Below, in pieces: positions 6,658-16,450 of a stretch of 22,396 nt of DNA. The notes beneath the pieces were generated by a model. That model made no database searches. It saw nothing but the letters and a program-made list of their open reading frames with translations, and was not told the DNA's origin. Source of the DNA: Pseudomonadota bacterium (GTDB taxonomy: Bacteria; Pseudomonadota; Gammaproteobacteria; Xanthomonadales; Rhodanobacteraceae); NCBI GenBank assembly GCA_018241165.1, contig JAFEEK010000456.1, forward strand, positions 1-22,396, in the 5' to 3' direction. Every line of letters starts with the position of its first letter. Within the stretch, counting starts at the first letter, position 1. The translations under genes were made by a program, and so were the position numbers.

Positions 6658-7971
6658 ATGAAATCGACGACTGCGCTGCTCGTGTCAGTTATCTTGTGCG
6701 CAACGGCTGCCCGTGCCGAAACCGCGATCGACGCCATTGCCGCGCACAAGCACATGGGCGTGGCCACGTGCAGCAGCAGCGTGTGCCATGGCGCGTCGCA
6801 GCCATTCCGCGATTCCGACATCGCGCAAAACGAATTCGCGATCTGGCAGGAGTTCGATCCGCATGCCAAGGCCTATCAGATTCTCGCGCAGCCGCGTTCG
6901 CAGGCGATCGCGCGCAAACTGGGGCTGGGCGATGCGACCAAGGCCAAGGTTTGCCTGGATTGCCATGCCGACAACGTCCCGGCGGGCGATCGCGGCGAGC
7001 GTTTCCAGATTTCCGATGGCGTGGGTTGCGAAGCCTGCCATGGCGGCGCGCAGCTGTGGCTGAATTCGCACGCGGATCGCAAGGTTACCCATGCCGACAA
7101 CCTGGCCAAGGGCATGTACGCGACGGCCGATCCGGTCAAGCGCGCGCAGTTGTGCCTGTCCTGCCACATGGGCGAAAAGGAGCGCATGATCACGCACCGG
7201 ATCATGGGCGCCGGGCATCCGCGGCTTTCGTTCGAACTGGATACCTTCACCTGGCTCAAGCCGCACTACAAGATCACGGCGAACTGGATCAAGCGCAAGG
7301 GCGAATGGAATGGCGTGCGCGATTGGGCCGTGGGGCAGGGCGTCGCGGCCGAAAACCTGCTCGATCTGCTGGTCGATCCGAAAACCGGTTGGCAGGGCAT
7401 TTTCCCGGAACTCGTGCTGTTCAATTGCCAGGCCTGCCACAAGCTGATGAAGGACAACAGCTGGGGGCCGCGCCAAGGCACGGGCCTGGGCCCCGGCGTG
7501 GTCCGGCTCAACGACGCGAACCTGGTGACGTTCCGTTATGCGCTGGCGCCGGTGGACAAATCCGCGGCGCAACGCGTGTTCGAACAGACGCGTGCGCTGC
7601 ACCAGGCCACCACGCAAAGCCGCGATGCCACGTTCGCCGCGGCGCGCAATTTGCGCGGCACGCTGGAATCGATCCTGCCCAAGGTGTCCGCGTACGACTA
7701 TGGCGCAACGAGCCTGAATCCGATCCTCGATGCCATGCTCGCCGATGCGCGCAATGGCGAATTCCGCGATTACGCGGCGGCCGAGCAGGCGGCAATGGCT
7801 TCCGAGTCCATCGTCCTGGCATTCGAGAACGACGGCAAGCTCGACAAGGCGATGGCTGCGTCGTTGCACGTAAAACTCGATGCCTTGTACGCGACCGTGA
7901 AGGACGAAGATCGCTATTCGATGACGCCGTTCGTGGCCGCATTGAAGGATTTGCGCGCCGCCGCGCCATGA
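6658..7971 (+). CDS. Exported five-heme c-type cytochrome (cytochrome c554-like)
   Basis: The 437-aa product begins with a signal peptide (residues 1-20, cleavage after ARA) and is therefore periplasmic. It has five candidate heme c attachment motifs: CSSSVCH (38-44, the rare CX4CH spacing), CLDCH (99-103), CEACHGG (124-130), CLSCH (166-170) and CQACH (257-261). Other histidines, for example H141-region and H180/H187, could be distal ligands. The C-terminal 170 residues are helical and heme-free. The layout resembles the cytochrome c554 / multiheme family, whose members transfer electrons in the periplasm; the partner is unknown. A strong ribosome site, GGGGAGGAAGG, lies at 6645-6655. The gene follows dnaQ by 51 nt and precedes the Ser/Thr kinase by 10 nt, suggesting an operon with the kinase. 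Confidence 0.82.
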   Translation: MKSTTALLVSVILCATAARAETAIDAIAAHKHMGVATCSSSVCHGASQPFRDSDIAQNEFAIWQEFDPHAKAYQILAQPRSQAIARKLGLGDATKAKVCLDCHADNVPAGDRGERFQISDGVGCEACHGGAQLWLNSHADRKVTHADNLAKGMYATADPVKRAQLCLSCHMGEKERMITHRIMGAGHPRLSFELDTFTWLKPHYKITANWIKRKGEWNGVRDWAVGQGVAAENLLDLLVDPKTGWQGIFPELVLFNCQACHKLMKDNSWGPRQGTGLGPGVVRLNDANLVTFRYALAPVDKSAAQRVFEQTRALHQATTQSRDATFAAARNLRGTLESILPKVSAYDYGATSLNPILDAMLADARNGEFRDYAAAEQAAMASESIVLAFENDGKLDKAMAASLHVKLDALYATVKDEDRYSMTPFVAALKDLRAAAP

Positions 7972-7981
7972 GTTGCATGCG

Positions 7982-9406
7982 ATGACAGAAAACGTCCAGG
8001 TATCCGGCTACAAACTGGTTCAGAAAATCGGCGAAGGCGGCATGGCCACAGTCTATCTGGCCGTGCAGGAGTCGCTCGACCGTGAGGTGGCGCTCAAGAT
8101 CATGGCGCCGACACTGGCCGCGAACGAGACGTTTCGCGAGCAGTTCATGAAGGAAGGCCGCATCGCGGCCAAGCTGACGCATCCGCACCTGATGACCGTG
8201 CACGACATCGGTTCGGAGAAAGGCGTCTATTACCTCGCCAGCGAGTACCTTCCGGCCGGCACCCTGCGCGATCGCATGCAACGGCTGAATACGGCTGAAG
8301 TGCTCGAGATCATGCGCGACGTGGCATCCGGACTTTCCTATGCGCATGAAATGGGCTTCGTCCATCGCGACGTGAAACCCGGCAACATCATGTTCCGCAG
8401 CAATGGTTCCGCAGTGCTGGCGGACTTTGGCATCGCCAAGGCAATCAAGTCGGTGAGCGCGGCCACGATGGCAGGCAATGCGATCGGCACGCCCGACTAC
8501 ATGAGCCCGGAGCAGGCGCAGGCGACGCCGGTGGATGGGCGATCGGATCTGTACAGCTTGGGCGCGGTACTTTTCGAATGCGTGGCCGGACACAAGCCCT
8601 ACGAGGCCGGCGATGCATATGCCGTCGCCCTGATGCATGTGACCGAGCCGGTGCCCAAACTGCCGGAAAAACTCGCCTGGCTGCAACCGCTGATCGACAA
8701 GTCGATGGCCAAGCAACCGGACGAACGCTTTGCCACTGGCGATGCGTTCGTCGCCGAGCTCGATCGCCTGCTTGCCGCAAATCCGAAGATGGATGCGGTC
8801 ATGCGCGAATCGCGCAGCGCGCGCCGCCGTGCCGTGGCAACTGCCAAGTCCTCGTCTTCCACCGCGACCGGGACGAGCAGCAGAAAGTGGGTTTTCGCAG
8901 GCGCTGGCGTCGCCATGGCGGTGGCGGTGGCCGGATCGTCATGGTGGTTGTGGCATGGCCGAGGTACGGCGCCAACCGCCGTGGCAACGACCAATGTTCC
9001 GGCACAAACGCAATCCGCAGCGGTTGTCCCGGCACCCGTACCCGAGCCTGCCGCGGCAGCCGATGCGGCACTCGCGCAACTGGATCTTCCCACCTTGCTT
9101 TCGCGAGGCAGTGAATATTTTGCCTATGGCCAGAAAAACGGCGGCGAGAAGATGAGTTTCCCGCCCGGCGACAACGCCGTGGATTTGTTCCACGAGGCGC
9201 TCAAGCGCGATCCCGGCAACGCGCAGGCAACGCAAGGGCTGCTGAAGATCGCGGACTTCTACGCCAACGGCGCGCAAACTGCGCTCAAGAACGGGTTGTA
9301 CACGGGCGCGGATGTGCTGGTGGAATCGGGATTGCGCGCAGATCCGAAGAATGCCGCCTTGCTGCAGATGAAGGCGCAACTGGCGAAAGCCGAAGGCGGC
9401 GGCTGA
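7982..9406 (+). CDS. Transmembrane PknB-type Ser/Thr protein kinase with periplasmic C-terminal domain
   Basis: The 474-aa product is a Hanks-type kinase. Residues about 10-265 hold the P-loop GEGGMATVYLA, the ATP lysine Lys39 in VALKIM, HRDVKPGN (catalytic Asp130), DFG (148-150), the activation-loop end GTPDYMSPEQA, and DGRSDLYSLG. All catalytic residues are intact. A basic Ser-rich linker precedes one membrane helix (about 303-324). The outer part has an Ala/Pro-rich spacer, then a TPR-like helical domain (about 370-470) rather than PASTA repeats. Orientation should be kinase inside, helical domain in the periplasm. ATG 7982 is chosen because the kinase fold starts at once; the upstream TTG in frame is unlikely. 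It lies 10 nt after the cytochrome gene and faces a PP2C phosphatase gene 5 nt away. Targets are unknown. Confidence 0.9.
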   Translation: MTENVQVSGYKLVQKIGEGGMATVYLAVQESLDREVALKIMAPTLAANETFREQFMKEGRIAAKLTHPHLMTVHDIGSEKGVYYLASEYLPAGTLRDRMQRLNTAEVLEIMRDVASGLSYAHEMGFVHRDVKPGNIMFRSNGSAVLADFGIAKAIKSVSAATMAGNAIGTPDYMSPEQAQATPVDGRSDLYSLGAVLFECVAGHKPYEAGDAYAVALMHVTEPVPKLPEKLAWLQPLIDKSMAKQPDERFATGDAFVAELDRLLAANPKMDAVMRESRSARRRAVATAKSSSSTATGTSSRKWVFAGAGVAMAVAVAGSSWWLWHGRGTAPTAVATTNVPAQTQSAAVVPAPVPEPAAAADAALAQLDLPTLLSRGSEYFAYGQKNGGEKMSFPPGDNAVDLFHEALKRDPGNAQATQGLLKIADFYANGAQTALKNGLYTGADVLVESGLRADPKNAALLQMKAQLAKAEGGG

Positions 9407-9411
9407 AACAA

Positions 9412-10113
9412 TCAGCGGTCGCGGATAAGGATGACCGTTACGTTATCCGATCCGCCGCCTTCCAGCGCGGCCAGGATCAGGTGATCGACGCACTCCTGCG
9501 CGGAAAGGTCCTGGCGCGCCAACACCGCGCCGATGTCTCTGTCGTCGACTTCTTCGGTCAGGCCGTCCGAGCACAGCAGCACCTGCATGCCCGGCTGCAA
9601 GGTACCGCGGATCGTCTCCACGCGCAGGCTTTCCGGATCGGTAACCCCCAGCGCCTGGGTGACGACATTGCGATGCGGATGCGTGCGCGCCTGTTCGTGC
9701 GTGATTGCGCCTTGCGCGATCAGTTCCTGTACATAGGAATGATCGCGCGATAGTTGCTTGAGTTCGCCATTCCACAAGTAAACCCGACTGTCGCCGACCC
9801 AGCAGATTTCGTAGTCGCTGCCGTGCAGGCGCAGCGCGGCGATGGTGGTGCCCATCGGCAAGGCTTCGGCCTTCTTGCTCGAATGCAGGATGATTTCCTC
9901 ATCCGCGCGTTGGACTGCTTCGGCCAGCGACATGCCGGCACCGATCTCGCGCACGACCGCGTCGCGTGCGATCGCGCTGGCGACCTCGCCATGTTCGTGC
10001 CCGCCCATGCCATCGGCAACCAGCCACAGGCCAAGTTCGGCATCGGCGTAATACGTGTCTTCGTTGTGCTCGCGGCGCAAACCGACATGGGAGCTGTGGC
10101 CGAATTCGATCAT
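9412..10113 (-). CDS. PP2C-family Ser/Thr protein phosphatase
   Basis: This 233-aa cytosolic protein is a compact PP2C (PPM) phosphatase of the PstP/Stp1 type without membrane helices. Motifs in order: RREHNED (13-19), VADGMGGHEHG (32-42, metal-binding Asp34), GTT (88-90), WVGDSRVYL (105-113), a conserved HRNVVTQALG, LLCSDGL (metal-binding Asp184) and GGSDNVTV (Asp223). It should remove phosphate from Ser/Thr residues using Mn/Mg and is the natural antagonist of the kinase encoded convergently 5 nt away. The frame is open to 10317, but the PP2C fold begins at MIEFGHSSHVGLRREHNED, so ATG 10113 is chosen; the ribosome site is weak (GGGGATGA, rather far upstream). Confidence 0.93.
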   Translation of the reverse strand: MIEFGHSSHVGLRREHNEDTYYADAELGLWLVADGMGGHEHGEVASAIARDAVVREIGAGMSLAEAVQRADEEIILHSSKKAEALPMGTTIAALRLHGSDYEICWVGDSRVYLWNGELKQLSRDHSYVQELIAQGAITHEQARTHPHRNVVTQALGVTDPESLRVETIRGTLQPGMQVLLCSDGLTEEVDDRDIGAVLARQDLSAQECVDHLILAALEGGGSDNVTVILIRDR

Positions 10114-10237: not shown

Positions 10238-13219
10238 TCAGAACTCGATACGGATTCCGACGGACAAGCGATCGGCGTGTGCGCCTGCGCGGCCGGCCAT
10301 GTGTTCGTAGTACACATAACCGGAGCGCCCTTGCGCGAACACCGCGTTCAGGCCCAGGCCGAGGTTGAAGTAGTTGGAATCCGGCGCCTTGTCGGTCAGC
10401 GATATCGGGGTCTGCGTCGGGTCGGCGAGGAAGCGCACGACGATGGTCTGCGGGTCGTTGCGGAACTCGTGGTTCCATTCGACCACCGCATTGGGCACGA
10501 GTACGCCCCAGTCGGTGCTCATCGTGTAACTCACGCGCGCACCGGCAACGCCCAGCATCGAATCCATCGAACGACTCGCCACGGACGTACCAAGTCCGGC
10601 GCCGGCGGCATTCGGGTCGGACATCGTTTCGCTGAACCCGTCCAGGCTCGTGTGCGAATACACGCCACGCAGGTAGGGGCTGAATGTCCACGCCTTGCGG
10701 TTGAAATCACGTCCCGCCGACAGCGAGAACGAATTCTGGTCGCCGCTGGGCGATGCGAGGGCAGTTTGCGCCACCGTGGTGGTGCCACCGGACAGGCTCG
10801 CGATCTGGTACGTGATGTTGCGGCTCAGGTCGAAATCGAGCTTGTCGAAAATCAGCGAGCCTTCGACGTACCAATCGCCCCGATACCAGCTGAAGTAGCC
10901 ATTCAGGCTGTAGCCGTCGACGTCGGTCTTGCCGGCGTTGGCGTCGAAGCTGGAATTGTTCTGGTTGTAACCGAGCGCCGCGCCAGCCACGAACGTATCG
11001 GTGAAGCGATAGTCAACGCCCGCGGTCAGCGATGCATTGTGGTAGTCGAAGCCCGGGCGCAACGCGGTGGCATCGAAGCCGCCGCGTTCGATCATGCCGG
11101 TGGCGAAGAATCCCCAGCGCGAAAAATCCTTGCCGACTTCATCGCTGTTGGCCGGATCCTTGTGGAACAGGTCGCCGAGCATGGCCAGCGGCAAGCCGTG
11201 GCCGTCGAGGTTGAAGGTCAGGCCGCCAGCGCTGAATCCGCTGGCGCCCTGGCGCAACTCCGCAAAGCGCGTGTTGAGATTGTCGAACTGGCCCTGCTGC
11301 ACGCCTTGCGCCATGGCGCGTTGCGGCAGCGCCTTGTTGTTGAGCATGGCATCAAGCGCATCCGGCACCTGTTGCGGATTGCTGCTCGATCCGATCACGA
11401 GTTCCGAGCAACGTTGCAGGAAGTCTTTTTGCTGCGCTGTCAACGGCGCGGTTGAAGTGGCCAGAGCAGGGCATGCCTTGTCGATGGTGTTTGCCACGCC
11501 GGTCTGGGTCTGCGACAGACCGGGCAGGTTTTCCACGCCATTATTGAAGTTGAATGTCAGCGGTGGAATGCTGGTAATGCCCGCGATTTGCGCCGAGACC
11601 GTATAGCTGCCGGGAAGGACAACGGTGAGCGTGTTCTGCGCCGTGCCGTCTGCTCCGGTCGCGGTATTGGCATTGGCCAGGCTTCCAGTTGCGCCGGTGA
11701 CGCTCCACTGGATTACCGCGCCAGGTATTGCCGTGCCATCGGTCGAGGCGAGCTTGACCACGAGCGGTTGCGACGGCTGATTGGGCACGAGGGCCTGGTT
11801 GTTGCCGGACACGATCGTGAAGACCGAGCTGCCGGAGCTGATTTTTGGCGTCGCAATCGCACTGAACGTGATGCTGCCGGCACCGGCCACGGTCGCTTGC
11901 ACGAGATTGGTGCCGGGGTTGGGCCCGAGCGTGAGTGTGTTGCTGGCGCGTCCGCTGGCGTCGGTAAACGTCTGAAGCGACGCCATAGTTCCGCCGCCTT
12001 GCAGCACCGTCCAGGTCACCGCAATTCCACCCAGAGCGGCCGGACCCGAAGACTGCACCCTGCTGCTGGTGGATCCAGGTGGACTGATCTGCACGACGAA
12101 TGGTTGCAGGGTCGTGCCAACCGGGCCGGTCTGGCTGCTGCCGTTGATCGCGTTGAGTGCCGGAGCAAAGGCGGTTGCACTGAATGTAACCTGGTTCCCA
12201 CCGATGCTGGCCTGAATCGTTACCGGCCCGGGCGTCGTGCCATAGGTGAACGTGACTGATGCGTTGCCATTGCTGTCGCTGACTGAACTGGTCGCGCCGA
12301 GTGATGCTTGGCCGCTGGTTACGCTCCAAAACACGGATTGCCCGGACAAGGGATTGCCATTCGTGTCTGTTACCTTCACTGCCAGCGGCGAATCTCCCGC
12401 CGATCCGGCCGGACCGCTTTGATTGTTTCCGCTGAGAATTTCCAGTTTCGGCAAAGCGGAGGTGGCGTTGAAGGTGACTTGACTGCCAGGCACGCTTGCC
12501 TGAATCGAGATAACACCGGAATTTGCGCCGTACGTGAAGTTGACAGACGCGTTGCCGTTGCTGTCGGTGACCGAACTCGATGCGCTCAACGTTGCCTGTC
12601 CGCTGGTGACTGTCCATGCAACGGTTTGATTGGGAACGGGGGTGCCATTTGCCAGCAGTTGCACTGCCAGCGCGGACTTTGCGGCGGATTTGGCCGGCCC
12701 CGTCTGGTTGTTACCCGAGACGATCTGTAACGTCCCCTGGACTATGGTCAGGTTGAAATTCTGCACATAGTCGACGCTTCCCGACTGTTGGCAATCGCCG
12801 CAATATGCGCGAACGATGACCGGGCCGGGAGTCGATCCGAGGACGATATGGATTTCGCTGGATGCAGAAACCGTATTGCCTGGAGGCAGCGCGATCGAGT
12901 CGTCGTAGCTGGGGCCGCGTCCCTCCTGAATCGTTGCGTTTCCGCTCAACACGGTCCAGGTGACCGAAATCGGCTGTCCATCACTGCCGGGGGCTTCCAG
13001 ATCTACCGCGAGTGCCTGTGGCAATGTCGTCCCGGGCGCTCCGCTTTGGCCATCGCCGCTGTCGTAGTACATGGAAACGCAGTAGTAAGTGTCGCTATCG
13101 CACAATGCATGCGCGGCAGCAGGCCAGATGAGGCTGCATGCGAAAAACAGCAGGAAACCAAGTCGGTCTACACGAGTTCTTGACAGACGCGGTGCTAATT
13201 TTGCAGGTGCGGTTTGCAT
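10238..13219 (-). CDS. Type V autotransporter with tandem bacterial Ig-like repeats
   Basis: The 993-aa product has a Sec signal (about 1-38, cleavage near AHA-LC), a passenger of about five Ig-like domains (54-557), a helical linker with two cysteines (583, 604), and a C-terminal autotransporter beta-barrel (about 700-993). The barrel shows alternating aromatic strands (TAGVDYRFTDTFVAGAALGY, YFSWYRGDWYVEGSL) and ends RLSVGIRIEF with terminal Phe, the outer-membrane assembly signal. The Ig-like modules resemble invasin/intimin (Big_1-type) repeats, each with a SGNNQ-G-P start and a DSNGNAS or similar turn. The likely role is a surface-displayed adhesin; no enzymatic domain is seen. The start has a good ribosome site (GGGGGAA, about 7 nt upstream). 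It is divergent from the caspase-family gene and ends 124 nt before the phosphatase start on the same strand. Confidence 0.88.
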   Translation of the reverse strand: MQTAPAKLAPRLSRTRVDRLGFLLFFACSLIWPAAAHALCDSDTYYCVSMYYDSGDGQSGAPGTTLPQALAVDLEAPGSDGQPISVTWTVLSGNATIQEGRGPSYDDSIALPPGNTVSASSEIHIVLGSTPGPVIVRAYCGDCQQSGSVDYVQNFNLTIVQGTLQIVSGNNQTGPAKSAAKSALAVQLLANGTPVPNQTVAWTVTSGQATLSASSSVTDSNGNASVNFTYGANSGVISIQASVPGSQVTFNATSALPKLEILSGNNQSGPAGSAGDSPLAVKVTDTNGNPLSGQSVFWSVTSGQASLGATSSVSDSNGNASVTFTYGTTPGPVTIQASIGGNQVTFSATAFAPALNAINGSSQTGPVGTTLQPFVVQISPPGSTSSRVQSSGPAALGGIAVTWTVLQGGGTMASLQTFTDASGRASNTLTLGPNPGTNLVQATVAGAGSITFSAIATPKISSGSSVFTIVSGNNQALVPNQPSQPLVVKLASTDGTAIPGAVIQWSVTGATGSLANANTATGADGTAQNTLTVVLPGSYTVSAQIAGITSIPPLTFNFNNGVENLPGLSQTQTGVANTIDKACPALATSTAPLTAQQKDFLQRCSELVIGSSSNPQQVPDALDAMLNNKALPQRAMAQGVQQGQFDNLNTRFAELRQGASGFSAGGLTFNLDGHGLPLAMLGDLFHKDPANSDEVGKDFSRWGFFATGMIERGGFDATALRPGFDYHNASLTAGVDYRFTDTFVAGAALGYNQNNSSFDANAGKTDVDGYSLNGYFSWYRGDWYVEGSLIFDKLDFDLSRNITYQIASLSGGTTTVAQTALASPSGDQNSFSLSAGRDFNRKAWTFSPYLRGVYSHTSLDGFSETMSDPNAAGAGLGTSVASRSMDSMLGVAGARVSYTMSTDWGVLVPNAVVEWNHEFRNDPQTIVVRFLADPTQTPISLTDKAPDSNYFNLGLGLNAVFAQGRSGYVYYEHMAGRAGAHADRLSVGIRIEF
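11549..13060 (-). repeat. Five tandem Ig-like domain repeats in the autotransporter passenger
   Basis: Approximate residue limits are 54-160, 163-256, 258-352, 354-457 and 466-557 (about 90-105 aa each). Repeats 2 and 3 are the most alike (SGNNQ-GPA, VTSGQA-L, DSNGNASV-FTYG, IQAS, QVTF); 1 and 4 are longer and diverged, and 5 lacks parts of the motif. This is intragenic protein-domain repetition, seen at the DNA level mainly between repeats 2 and 3 (12170-12733). Confidence 0.8.
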
Positions 13220-13240
13220 GGCGCTTCCCCCAGGTCATCC

Positions 13241-13255
13241 TATAATCGGAGTATA
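13241..13255. promoter_or_regulatory. Candidate bidirectional promoter core between autotransporter and caspase genes
   Basis: The short divergent gap contains a consensus TATAAT on the plus strand (13241-13246, toward the caspase gene) and TATACT on the minus strand (revcomp of 13250-13255, toward the autotransporter). The two boxes are only 3 nt apart, so two RNA polymerases could not bind together. No strong -35 hexamers are seen; that of the plus box would lie at the autotransporter start codon. An activator or extracytoplasmic sigma factor is possible but unproven. Confidence 0.5.
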
Positions 13256-13291
13256 GCGGCAAATCCTGCGCATGCAGGCTCATACCACAGC

Positions 13292-13304
13292 GGAGAAAGT
13301 CATG
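13292..13304 (+). promoter_or_regulatory. Ribosome binding site that fixes the caspase-gene start
   Basis: GGAGAAAG begins at 13292, with GGAG 6 nt before ATG 13302. The upstream in-frame ATG at 13272 has no ribosome site, and the signal peptide reads well from 13302. Confidence 0.75.
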
Positions 13305-15758
13305 GGGATGCTCGGAAACTTGTACTGTCGCTTGCGGCCAGTTGCGATGGCTGCCGGGTTTGCGTGTGCGTCGCTTGCCGGTTCCTTTGTGCCGGTGCAA
13401 CCGGCGCAGGCCACGGTTACCACGCGCAATCCGGAGGATCTGTTGATCGTCGATTGCCTGCTGCCCGGGCAGGTGCGCAAACTCGGTCGCTCGACCTCGT
13501 TCATGAGCGCGCGGCGGCCGATTCGCACCACGCAATCCGATTGCGAGATTCGCGGCGGCGAATATGTATCCTACGATCGCGCCAACTATGAAACCGCGCT
13601 CAAGGTCTGGATGGGGCAGGCCGATTCCGGCGATGCCGAGGCGCAAAACTACGTCGGCGAGATTTATCTCAAAGGACTTGGCACCGATCCCGATTACGCC
13701 AAGGCGCGCGCATGGTTCGAAAAGGCCGCTGCGCAAGGCGACAAGCGCGCGCGAATCAATCTGGGTTACCTGTACGAACAGGGCCTGGGTGTTCCCAAAG
13801 ACCTTGCCAAGGCCTTGAACCTGTACGGCGAGGCATCCGGCGTCGACAACGACAAACTGGTTTTCGCATCCACCGTCACCGCGCAAGTGCAGGAAGCGAA
13901 GAACGAATCGGCATCGCTGCGAGAGCAGTTGGCGACCGAGCAGCAGAAGTCTTCGCAATTGCGCGCGCAAGTCGGCAAGCTGCAATCCGAGTTGCAGCAA
14001 AAGCAGCAAAGCTATCAAAAGTCGCAAGGCGAACTGGACAACGTCCGGCGCAAGCTCGATGCCGAGCAGGCGCGTGCGGGCGTCGACAAGAATCCGGATT
14101 TCATCAAGCTGCAAACTGATACGCAGGCCCAGGAAAAAGATCTGGCCGCACAGCGCGACGCACTCAAGGCCCAGCAGGATTCCAGCGCGAAGCAGCTTGC
14201 CGACGCCGAGGGCCAGATCGCCAAGCTCAAGGCGCGCGAGCAGGAATTGCTGGCGCAGAAATCCTCGCCGGACAACGACCAGGCGCTCACCTCGCTGCGC
14301 TCTTCGGCGTCGCAGATGGACGCGGCCCTGCGCGAAGGTCGCGAACGCATGCAGCTCGTGCAGAAGCAGATGGCGCAGAACGACCAGCAGCGCCAGGAGG
14401 CGCAGGCGAAGTTCGATCAGGCGCGCGCGCAACTCGCGCTTGAGCACGCACAGAACGAAAACTCGAAGCAATTGCTCAAACTGATGGAAGCGCAGCTTTC
14501 GGAAAAGCGCCAGGAGCTTGCCAGCCAGCGCAGCCAGATGGCCAGCTTGCAGGCCCAGATCGATGGCACGAAGTACGCGTCGCTGCCTTCCGGTTTCACC
14601 ACGGCCAGCCTGACCGGCGACTTGCGCGTGGAAATCCTGCAACCGTCATTGGCCCTTACGCGCGGCTTGAACAAGCCGGCGGCTTCGGTGCCGCCCGCGC
14701 AGAACGGCATCGACGTGGTCGGGCGCGTGCAGGCGCCGGCCGGACTGACTTCGGTCACGCTCAACGGCCAGACCGTTGCGGTCGGCGCTGGTGGCGTGTT
14801 CAAGACCCACGTGGCGCTGACCGGTGGCAACGACACGGCCGTGCGCGTGGCGGCCGCGGACAAGTCCGGCGGCGAAGCGGTACTGGATTTCATGCTCGTG
14901 CCGGGACCCGGCGGCAAGGCAACGCGGGAAACCGCTCCACGCGGCCAGGCGTTGCCACCCAATGTTCGTCTGGGTAAGTACTACGCCCTGATCATCGGCA
15001 ACGACAGCTACGCCGCATTCCCGGCGCTGGCCAGCGCGGCGGAAGACGCCAAGGCCGTGGGCGGCGTGTTGCAATCGCGCTACGGCTACGACGTAAAAAC
15101 GCTGACCAACGCGAATCGTTTCGAAATCCTGTCCGCGCTCAACGACCTGCGCGAAGCATTGACCGACAAGGACAATCTGCTGGTGTATTACGCCGGCCAC
15201 GGCGAAATCGACGCGCAACGCCAGGGCTACTGGCTGCCGGTGGATGCGCAGCTCAGCCAGCCCAACAGCTGGATTTCCAATCGTGCGATCAGCGACATCC
15301 TCACCACCATGCAGGCGCGGCACGTGCTGGTGATCGCCGACTCGTGCTATTCGGGCACGATGACGCGTTCGGCGCTGGCGACGTTCGGCGGCGGCATGGC
15401 CGACAACGTCTGGGGCGATTGGGTCAAGACCATGGTGGCCGGGCGCTCGCGCACGGCATTGACCTCGGGCGGCGTGCAGCCGGTCGCCGACGCGACGAGC
15501 AAGGGCGGTCATTCCGTGTTCGCCACGGCGCTGCTGACCGTATTGCGCGACAACAACCAGCTGCTGACCGGTCAGGAAATGTTCCGCGAGATCGCCGCCG
15601 GCATGGCCCTGCGCAGCGCGAACGCCGGCTTGCAGCAGGCGCCGGAGTACGCGCCGATCCAGTTCGCCGGACACGAGGCTGGCGAATTCTTCCTGCAACC
15701 GGAAAATGCCGGCCGCAAGACCGCCGCCATCGCGAGTCGACGCGGCGACGGCGTATAG
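13302..15758 (+). CDS. Exported caspase-family protease (orthocaspase) with Sel1 repeats and coiled coil
   Basis: The 818-aa product has a signal-like N-terminus (about 1-37, cleavage near AQA-TV), two Sel1-like repeats (about 94-180: ALKVWMGQADSGDAEAQNYV, GEIYLKGLG, AQGDKRARINLGYLYEQGLG), a long Gln/Ala/Lys-rich coiled coil (about 195-430), a beta-rich domain (about 440-540) and a C-terminal caspase (peptidase C14) domain from about 557. The C14 domain starts KYYALIIGNDSYAAFP and has the His of YYAGHGE (His633) and the Cys of ADSCYSG (Cys682), so the dyad is intact. C14 enzymes of bacteria usually cleave after Arg/Lys. Here the protease would act in the periplasm or at the membrane, which is unusual. 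It is divergent from the autotransporter. Natural substrates and any role in cell death are unknown. Confidence 0.88.
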   Translation: MGMLGNLYCRLRPVAMAAGFACASLAGSFVPVQPAQATVTTRNPEDLLIVDCLLPGQVRKLGRSTSFMSARRPIRTTQSDCEIRGGEYVSYDRANYETALKVWMGQADSGDAEAQNYVGEIYLKGLGTDPDYAKARAWFEKAAAQGDKRARINLGYLYEQGLGVPKDLAKALNLYGEASGVDNDKLVFASTVTAQVQEAKNESASLREQLATEQQKSSQLRAQVGKLQSELQQKQQSYQKSQGELDNVRRKLDAEQARAGVDKNPDFIKLQTDTQAQEKDLAAQRDALKAQQDSSAKQLADAEGQIAKLKAREQELLAQKSSPDNDQALTSLRSSASQMDAALREGRERMQLVQKQMAQNDQQRQEAQAKFDQARAQLALEHAQNENSKQLLKLMEAQLSEKRQELASQRSQMASLQAQIDGTKYASLPSGFTTASLTGDLRVEILQPSLALTRGLNKPAASVPPAQNGIDVVGRVQAPAGLTSVTLNGQTVAVGAGGVFKTHVALTGGNDTAVRVAAADKSGGEAVLDFMLVPGPGGKATRETAPRGQALPPNVRLGKYYALIIGNDSYAAFPALASAAEDAKAVGGVLQSRYGYDVKTLTNANRFEILSALNDLREALTDKDNLLVYYAGHGEIDAQRQGYWLPVDAQLSQPNSWISNRAISDILTTMQARHVLVIADSCYSGTMTRSALATFGGGMADNVWGDWVKTMVAGRSRTALTSGGVQPVADATSKGGHSVFATALLTVLRDNNQLLTGQEMFREIAAGMALRSANAGLQQAPEYAPIQFAGHEAGEFFLQPENAGRKTAAIASRRGDGV

Positions 15759-15768
15759 CAATTGACGA

Positions 15769-15797
15769 GCCGCTACGCCCGTTTGCGGCGTAGCGGC
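15769..15797. terminator. Perfect 11-bp inverted repeat between convergent genes
   Basis: GCCGCTACGCC (15769-15779) pairs with GGCGTAGCGGC (15787-15797) around a 7-nt loop. It lies 10 nt after the caspase-gene stop and overlaps the last codons of the convergent EcsC-like gene. Neither flank has a T tract, so it may act as a transcription barrier or RNA 3'-end stabiliser rather than a classical intrinsic terminator. Confidence 0.5.
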
Positions 15798-16450
15798 GAT
15801 TTGACGACGCTGGCGGCGCCCGCCATCGTCTTGCCAATGCCAGCGATCACGCCTTTCGCGGCGCCCAGCGACCACGCCAAAATGCGGCGCTCGTCGATGC
15901 CGGTGAAGGCGCGCAGTGCGTCGGGCATGCCGGCAATCGGCGCTTGTGGCAGTCGCGCCACGGCTTGCGCGCGCTTGCCGATCGCGTATGTCACGGTTGC
16001 GTTTGCCAGCGCCGAAGAAACGATGGCGGCCACCGGCAGCGCACGCCGTGCCACCAGGTTCCCGGCGTTGCGCAACAGGCGATGCAGCAGGCCGCGGCCG
16101 ATCGCGTCGCCGGCCACGCTCGCGCCGGTCCCGAACAGCAGCACTTTGTGTACAAGTGAATTTTGCAGCGCGGCAGGCAGGTTCAGCCCGTAAAGGCGGA
16201 ATGTTTCCTCGATGAGCTCGTGCTGGGTCGCCGCCAGCATTTCCGCATCGATGAGTTCGCCGAACACCACGCCGAGCGCCTTGCCGAGTCCTGGCAGGGA
16301 CTCGGCCGCCGCGGTGCAGGCGCCGATGGTCGCGGCGCGCACGCACTTGCGCCGCAACAGCGCAAGAAATGCTTTCGCGTGCGGATCCGATGGCCGTGCA
16401 GGATGACGGATTGCAATGATTTCGCGGCTGCGGACAACGATGGACTTCAT
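15773..16450 (-). CDS. Uncharacterised EcsC/DUF697-like helical protein
   Basis: I do not recognise a named gene. The 225-aa product is Ala/Leu-rich and helical. It has a [10 protein letters not shown] turn (51-60), an acidic/amphipathic helix (65-87), glycine-containing segments that could be membrane-associated (104-122, 138-157), and [20 protein letters not shown] near 137-156. The pattern 'PGLG ... LPV-------AN-A-TYAIG' recalls the EcsC and DUF697 families, whose biochemical role is poorly known. The tail is basic (SPLRRKRA). No signal peptide or catalytic motif is seen. It is convergent with the caspase gene and divergent from mtnA across 59 nt. The assignment to EcsC/DUF697 is from remembered pattern only and is tentative. 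Confidence 0.6.

Follow-up and report, generated by a model that had tools for sequence, protein, structure and literature searches.

We find that the caspase gene at positions 13302-15758 of the window, i.e. the whole stretch of 22,396 nucleotides analysed here, belongs to one large, apparently exported caspase family with a specific co-inherited partner gene, which encodes an autotransporter carrying a conserved helical stub. The partnership between caspase and stub autotransporter is well supported by the genome sequences compared. The family also has a second likely partner, a kinase with a periplasmic domain, and a natural variant that lacks the protease, and the co-inheritance hints at an envelope signalling or processing system not yet described. 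The caspase gene and the parts of its product are located as follows.

13302..15758, plus strand: predicted exported orthocaspase gene, 818 amino acids plus stop
13335..13412, plus strand: signal segment, residues 12-37, with a likely signal peptidase I site after PAQA (from the sequence and the hydrophobic segments of relatives)
13431..13586, plus strand: N-module, residues 44-95 (alignment A1, Pfam scan)
13587..13841, plus strand: Sel1 repeats, residues 96-180 (PF08238, AlphaFold2 model)
13866..14579, plus strand: long helices or coiled coil, residues 189-426 (AlphaFold2 model, alignment)
14619..14906, plus strand: Ig-like beta domain, residues 440-535 (AlphaFold2 model, weak PF09136)
14967..15701, plus strand: C14 caspase domain, residues 556-800 (Pfam PF00656, model)

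The open reading frame fills exactly 13302-15758 on the plus strand and encodes 818 residues plus a stop. Its ATG is directly preceded by GGAGAA, and the closest relative (L032) shares this start position; an alternative in-frame ATG lies upstream at 13272. No promoter-like or terminator-like site was found in 13100-13420. A protein search scored 7998 proteins, 5932 of them at E 1e-10 or better, and the 120 homologues listed are 51-98% identical and nearly all full-length. Judged from these near-full-length homologues, the frame is not a chance one. NCBI names among the listed homologues are "caspase family protein" of Rudaea sp., Xanthomonadaceae or unclassified Proteobacteria, and PF24161, a precomputed label on many of them, was not reproduced in a scan of four. 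On the 3' side of the caspase gene lies a small minus-strand open reading frame (15773-16450), which is kept there in the genus and whose only match, to DUF697, is weak (14.6 bits, cut-off 27.7).

A Pfam scan of the protein finds Peptidase_C14 at residues 561-783 with 78.7 bits, passing the curated cut-off of 21.4, and two Sel1 repeats with 64.7 bits (cut-off 30.7), while no peptidase family other than C14 scores over its cut-off. Glucodextran_B (PF09136) matches weakly over residues 459-524, with 24.4 bits and thus below its cut-off of 27. At E 0.01, the C14 match is found in 18 of the 18 members of alignment A1 and PF09136 in 10 of the 18. The AlphaFold2 model, built from 18 sequences (mean pLDDT 72, pTM 0.40), has a signal helix at residues 12-28, Sel1 helices at 96-179, long helices at 189-426, a beta domain at 442-534 and the C14 domain at 560-790. 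The score over the cut-off, the His/Cys dyad and the fold place the protein in Peptidase C14 (caspase fold); the model for EACC1-associated caspases (NF047832) gives 83.1 bits, below its cut-off of 140.

The original prediction had read the protein as Sel1 repeats, a coil of about 230 residues, a beta domain and a C14 domain, and this order is borne out by both Pfam and AlphaFold2. Its list of parts left unnamed a further conserved module at residues ~44-95. This N-module, which has no Pfam match in the scan of the window protein, is among the most conserved stretches of the caspase family in the alignment, and its Cys52 and Cys81 are invariant in A1. The helical part, ~230 residues long in the window caspase, is of variable length across the family and is missing in one relative (L172). 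His633 and Cys682 are present at those positions in the window caspase and are invariant in A1, as are Asp582 and Asp680, which may be acids of the S1 pocket, the role such residues have in metacaspases (orthocaspase Arg/Lys specificity).

The dyad is also kept in wider sets. Of 139 aligned proteins (121 from the protein search including the query, and 18 from loci), 136 have His633 and 137 have Cys682; where either is missing there is a gap, in P0079 (578 aa) or in one of two contig-end fragments. A scan with A1 over one genome per species gives at least 79 loci, which are the best-scoring ones and not a random sample; those listed come, by the labels of their MAG records, from Xanthomonadales, Methylococcaceae, Rhodocyclaceae, Thiodiazotropha, Pseudomonadales, Nitrospira, Myxococcota, Desulfobacterota and others. 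Of 119 loci, 10 were set aside as duplicates or fragments and 2 for having no single open reading frame with both modules, which leaves 107 deduplicated relatives. An intact dyad had been predicted for the window protein, with common loss among homologues named as the result that would speak against the reading; both residues are present in the window protein, and whole open reading frames keep them in 105 of the 107 relatives, at a spacing of 48-53. Of the remaining two, one lies at a contig end and the other has no C14 domain.

A hydrophobic segment precedes the N-module at the N-terminus of 103 of the 107 relatives, and a lipobox pattern is found in 65, a crude pattern by which some cases are false and some are missed. 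The nearer relatives of the window caspase have a signal-peptidase-I type segment instead of a lipobox, and in the window protein the hydrophobic segment ends PAQA/TV. Script gene calls in high-GC DNA are rough, and some called frames therefore begin too early. These segments support the signal-like start read by the original prediction, and the window caspase is apparently an exported protein of the cell envelope; to go by the relatives, predicted export and the dyad are both traits of the family.

Divergent from the caspase gene, with 82 bp between, lies the gene for the autotransporter.

10238..13219, minus strand: autotransporter, 993 aa, with signal segment, Big_1 Ig-like passenger, helical stub and beta barrel (PF03797, PF02369)
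11249..11521, minus strand: helical stub, residues 567-657, with Cys583, Cys604 and an RxxxLR motif (alignment, model)
11126..11245, minus strand: low-confidence linker from stub to barrel, residues 659-698 (pLDDT <50)

The window autotransporter scores 172.3 bits with PF03797 (cut-off 26) and 125.8 bits with PF02369 (cut-off 34.9), and its C-terminal PF03797 barrel, which starts after the stub, identifies it as type Va. The barrel is present in all 39 autotransporters compared beside caspases. In the same 39 proteins the stub keeps its two Cys throughout, Arg651 in 38 and Arg656 in 36. A model of stub and barrel (mean pLDDT 85.9, pTM 0.80) has about a dozen barrel strands; the stub forms a confident four-helix domain, with block means of 77-95 in pLDDT, and is followed by the linker, with pLDDT <50, and then the barrel. 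No stub-specific family was found in Pfam or NCBIfam; TIGR01414, a broad barrel model, scores 54.8 bits on the window segment, and its alignment, which starts at residue 22, covers much of the stub. The N-module and the stub are both conserved, and neither has its own family in the libraries searched. In the window genome (89.6% complete), no PF03797 protein besides the neighbour and no C14 protein besides the caspase was found. The envelope partner that the original prediction had proposed now has a named candidate, i.e. this neighbouring autotransporter.

The two genes stay together in relatives. When the window genes are mapped on 20 relative stretches, the autotransporter lies beside the caspase in 19, all but L045; the pairing persists where the other flanks differ, and its orientation shifts from divergent to head-to-tail. 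Among 90 deduplicated loci (from 99, less 7 duplicates or fragments and 2 in which no single open reading frame has both modules), a barrel lies within 5 kb of the caspase in 64, a kinase in 50, and either in 82. Where at least 5 kb is available on both sides (49 loci), the same distance takes in the autotransporter in 41, a kinase in 30 and either in 48, with varying gene orders and orientations. Since these neighbour loci were the best-scoring ones, a sample not chosen by similarity was needed.

Such a sample is given by 274 genomes drawn evenly from the class, the window's own genome (G000) included. We searched it with a model of the caspase N-module (A2, E 1e-6) and with a stub-only model (A4, E 1e-3). 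The N-module is found in 21 of the 274 genomes and the stub in 22, with both in 20 (Fisher P = 4e-27). With six genomes removed, among them those known to have contributed sequences to A4, the stub is present in 14 of 15 caspase genomes and in 2 of 253 others (P = 2e-20). Fisher tests ignore the relatedness of genomes; counted by family, the stub is present in 16 of 16 caspase-bearing families, and two further families have the stub alone. The discordant genomes are G158, with a caspase and no stub match, and G203 and G329, with weak stub matches (38.6 and 42.6 bits) and no caspase. The general PF03797 barrel was rejected as a mark of the partner, being too broad (106 of 274 genomes); the stub model is the specific mark. 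At E 1e-3, PF03797 is found in all 21 caspase genomes, with one to five matches each, and in 85 of the 253 genomes without a caspase.

Physical linkage is also seen in this sample, where the counts within 10 kb, their chance expectations and the comparison of C14 families were compiled by hand from the search output. PF03797 lies at most 10 kb from the N-module in 15 of the 21 genomes (including G168, where the match is to a remnant), against 0.2 expected; a kinase lies as near the caspase in 15 of the 21, against 0.65 expected; and one or the other does so in 18. Neither partner is near the caspase in G158 and G285, which belong to one genus, or in G246, whose contig ends 298 bases from the caspase. 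The sample contains 22 caspase places, of which the neighbour survey took 20, leaving out G000 (the window) and G168. C14 genes of the window family lie within 10 kb of an autotransporter in 13 of 20 cases, compared with 2 of 18 for C14 genes of other families (P = 0.0009), and both of the latter are near a caspase of the window family. Separately, a second C14 gene without an N-module lies ~1 kb from the module's autotransporter at G287:C142:14238-14912 (region in L160).

In 60 relatives the caspase (by A2) and the stub are each found in 22, and both in 21, while six members of the same genus have neither; this sample is not independent, many of the positive genomes having given sequences to A2 and two to A4. 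The exceptions are G005, with a C-terminal caspase fragment at a contig edge, and G050, where an autotransporter adjoins the caspase but misses the stub threshold. A full-length protein search of the 60 relatives over-counts, giving 44 of 60 with Sel1-only hits included, and was replaced by A2 (22 of 60). Co-inheritance of a linked block could also be hitchhiking, although gene order and orientation differ between groups.

Beyond the autotransporter lie three further genes.

7973..9406, plus strand: Ser/Thr kinase with a transmembrane segment and a periplasmic TPR-like part (PF00069, 161.3 bits; A3 match at 9044-9382)
9412..10113, minus strand: PP2C-type Ser/Thr phosphatase (PF13672, 53.7 bits, cut-off 24; NF033484, 218.7 bits)
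6658..7971, plus strand: multihaem cytochrome c adjoining the kinase (PF13435, 44.6 bits)

The transmembrane segment of the window kinase was read from its sequence and its relatives. Kinases beside caspases have this segment after the kinase domain, mostly followed by a TPR-like part with a PxGxNA motif, which we modelled as A3. In L111, L115 and L083 the A3-type match precedes the transmembrane segment, and on account of that location it would not be periplasmic there. A3 is found in 73 of the 274 genomes, i.e. in 20 of the 21 with a caspase and in 53 of the 253 others. The ten best A3 matches are all in caspase genomes. One of these ten genomes, G135, seems to be the source of L085, whose sequence went into A3, and four of the ten (G331, G288, G158 and G285) have their best kinase match away from the caspase. 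The kinase is a likely and frequent third partner, with a link that is real but looser than that of the stub autotransporter, because its best match is sometimes away from the caspase and A3 also occurs in genomes without one.

In genomes without the caspase, A3 reaches up to eleven matches per genome, and this part may be a general envelope module. Pkinase matches in the 2.4-Mb assembly of the window genome itself number fourteen, 13 of them above the cut-off, the most among the 21 genomes of that search. The phosphatase, which in some cases accompanies the kinase near the caspase, scores slightly under the NF033484 cut-off of 230, and its start was set at MIEFGH, as in L039, rather than at 10317. 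Among 99 loci, 17 (including 4 duplicates) have the cytochrome next to the module, and these belong to nearer relatives only.

The following relatives lack the protease.

L172 9741-10799: protease-less family member beside a stub autotransporter
L151 844-1830, minus strand: protease-less family member that has lost part of the N-module, with a neighbouring autotransporter match that is a fragment

Specifically, the gene in L172 (genome G291) encodes a lipobox-type signal, the N-module, Sel1 repeats and the beta domain, and then stops. Neither G291 (96% complete) nor its congener G168 (99%) has a PF00656 match, and the family copy in G168 looks decayed. Because G291 thus has the scaffold and the stub autotransporter without C14, it seems to be the scaffold, rather than the C14 domain, that makes the pairing, with the protease as effector. 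The G291 stub also keeps the segment RLAGVRG, and retention of the Arg residues in a genome without a C14 match weakens a reading of them as merely a caspase cut site.

We consider the chances about even that the window caspase is the protease arm of a conserved envelope sensing module with the stub autotransporter. In such a module, the N-module, Sel1 repeats and beta domain would dock on the autotransporter at the outer membrane, while the helical spacer would keep C14 periplasmic. The caspase would be released or activated when the autotransporter changes, e.g. through ligand, damage or assembly state, and would cut after Arg/Lys, and the kinase/phosphatase pair would read or set the state of the complex from the cytoplasm. 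The docking, the activation by autotransporter state and the kinase/phosphatase coupling are inferred, like the mechanism and substrate as a whole; stub and caspase need not meet in the periplasm, because the passenger should end outside the cell. The fuller version is caspase-based transenvelope signalling, in which a surface stub autotransporter would signal to a periplasmic caspase carried by a Sel1/coiled-coil scaffold, with coupling to a eukaryote-like kinase of the inner membrane and its phosphatase; it is more tentative, and we lean somewhat against it. If true, it would give a caspase a role in the bacterial envelope, in place of one in cell death in the cytosol. With the partner named, the question of what an envelope caspase targets becomes a two-gene experiment in cultured bacteria.

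Other readings account for part of these data. The caspase could cut the autotransporter at the LR-x-G that ends the stub helix and, under control of the kinase, free the Ig passenger, much as adhesins are released in Lap systems. The window autotransporter does have a Big_1 Ig-like passenger, Arg656 ends a confident helix and adjoins the low-confidence linker, and orthocaspases cut after positively charged residues (PMC6426788). In Lap systems, a receptor in the inner membrane is coupled to a periplasmic protease and an adhesin at the surface (PMC3032545, PMC4359373). We nonetheless regard such release as unlikely, given the stub Arg retained in the C14-free G291, a type Va stub that may be beyond the reach of a periplasmic protease, and several stub autotransporters with almost no passenger beyond the stub.

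The same degree of doubt applies to a role in quality control, in which an envelope protease with a chaperone scaffold would dispose of stalled or misfolded autotransporters and the kinase would be near through shared regulation only. Sel1 repeats and Ig-like domains are binding modules, and a scaffold that exists without its protease is expected of a chaperone. A general helper, however, should track all autotransporters, and in genomes without the caspase the stub (2 of 253) is far scarcer than PF03797 (85 of 253); the kinase linkage would also be unaccounted for. Least probable by far, in our view, is an effector of cell death or anti-phage defence that is exported by chance or is cytosolic, with incidental neighbours or a defence island around it. 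Cell death is a usual reading of bacterial caspases (PMC3501461), the PADLOC caspase model gives a weak match (31.9 bits), and the window kinase strongly matches the PADLOC PD-T4-6 kinase models (284.5 bits), which may hit Ser/Thr kinases broadly. Against such an effector stand the export segment of nearly all relatives, the partnership statistics with the stub autotransporter, and the scarcity of other-family C14 genes near autotransporters. The sensing module remains our preferred reading.

The 2012 survey of bacterial caspases (PMC3501461) lacks localisation information for 529 of 671 proteins, so the premise of the original prediction that most bacterial homologues are cytosolic is not supported by it. 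The survey gives transmembrane helices in 15.5%, most of the caspases classed as membrane proteins having a helix at the N-terminus, possibly a signal peptide, and Sel1 repeats in 6.0% of the 671, with N-terminal helices also on record; one "Sel1 x 3|metacaspase" is recorded in PMC4933709 (2016). The survey's section on operons names surface proteins and OmpA, and autotransporters are absent from it. We found no report of a partnership of caspases with an autotransporter or kinase in the open-licence literature. Exported caspases and Sel1-bearing caspases were already known; within the literature searched, the module of caspase and stub autotransporter, often with the kinase, appears to be new.

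Compared with known systems, the window protein shares with prokaryotic metacaspases and orthocaspases (C14, PF00656) the fold, the His/Cys dyad and an Asp two residues before the catalytic Cys. Unlike known orthocaspases, it has the order signal, Cys-paired N-module, Sel1 repeats, long helices, Ig-like domain and C14, and its family is linked to a stub autotransporter and a kinase with a periplasmic domain. The paracaspase MALT1, a eukaryotic cytosolic protein, has an Ig-like domain after its protease, whereas that of the window protein precedes it, and the likeness is one of fold only. The neighbours share the PF03797 barrel with type Va autotransporters, and differ from these in general by a helical stub with two invariant Cys and RxxxLR, followed by a flexible linker. 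The Lap system (LapD, LapG, LapA) would be alike, should adhesin release be right, in joining an inner-membrane regulator, a periplasmic protease and a surface protein. By contrast with Lap, the window protease is a C14 rather than a LapG-type enzyme, a Ser/Thr kinase replaces the c-di-GMP receptor, and an autotransporter replaces the type 1 secreted adhesin.
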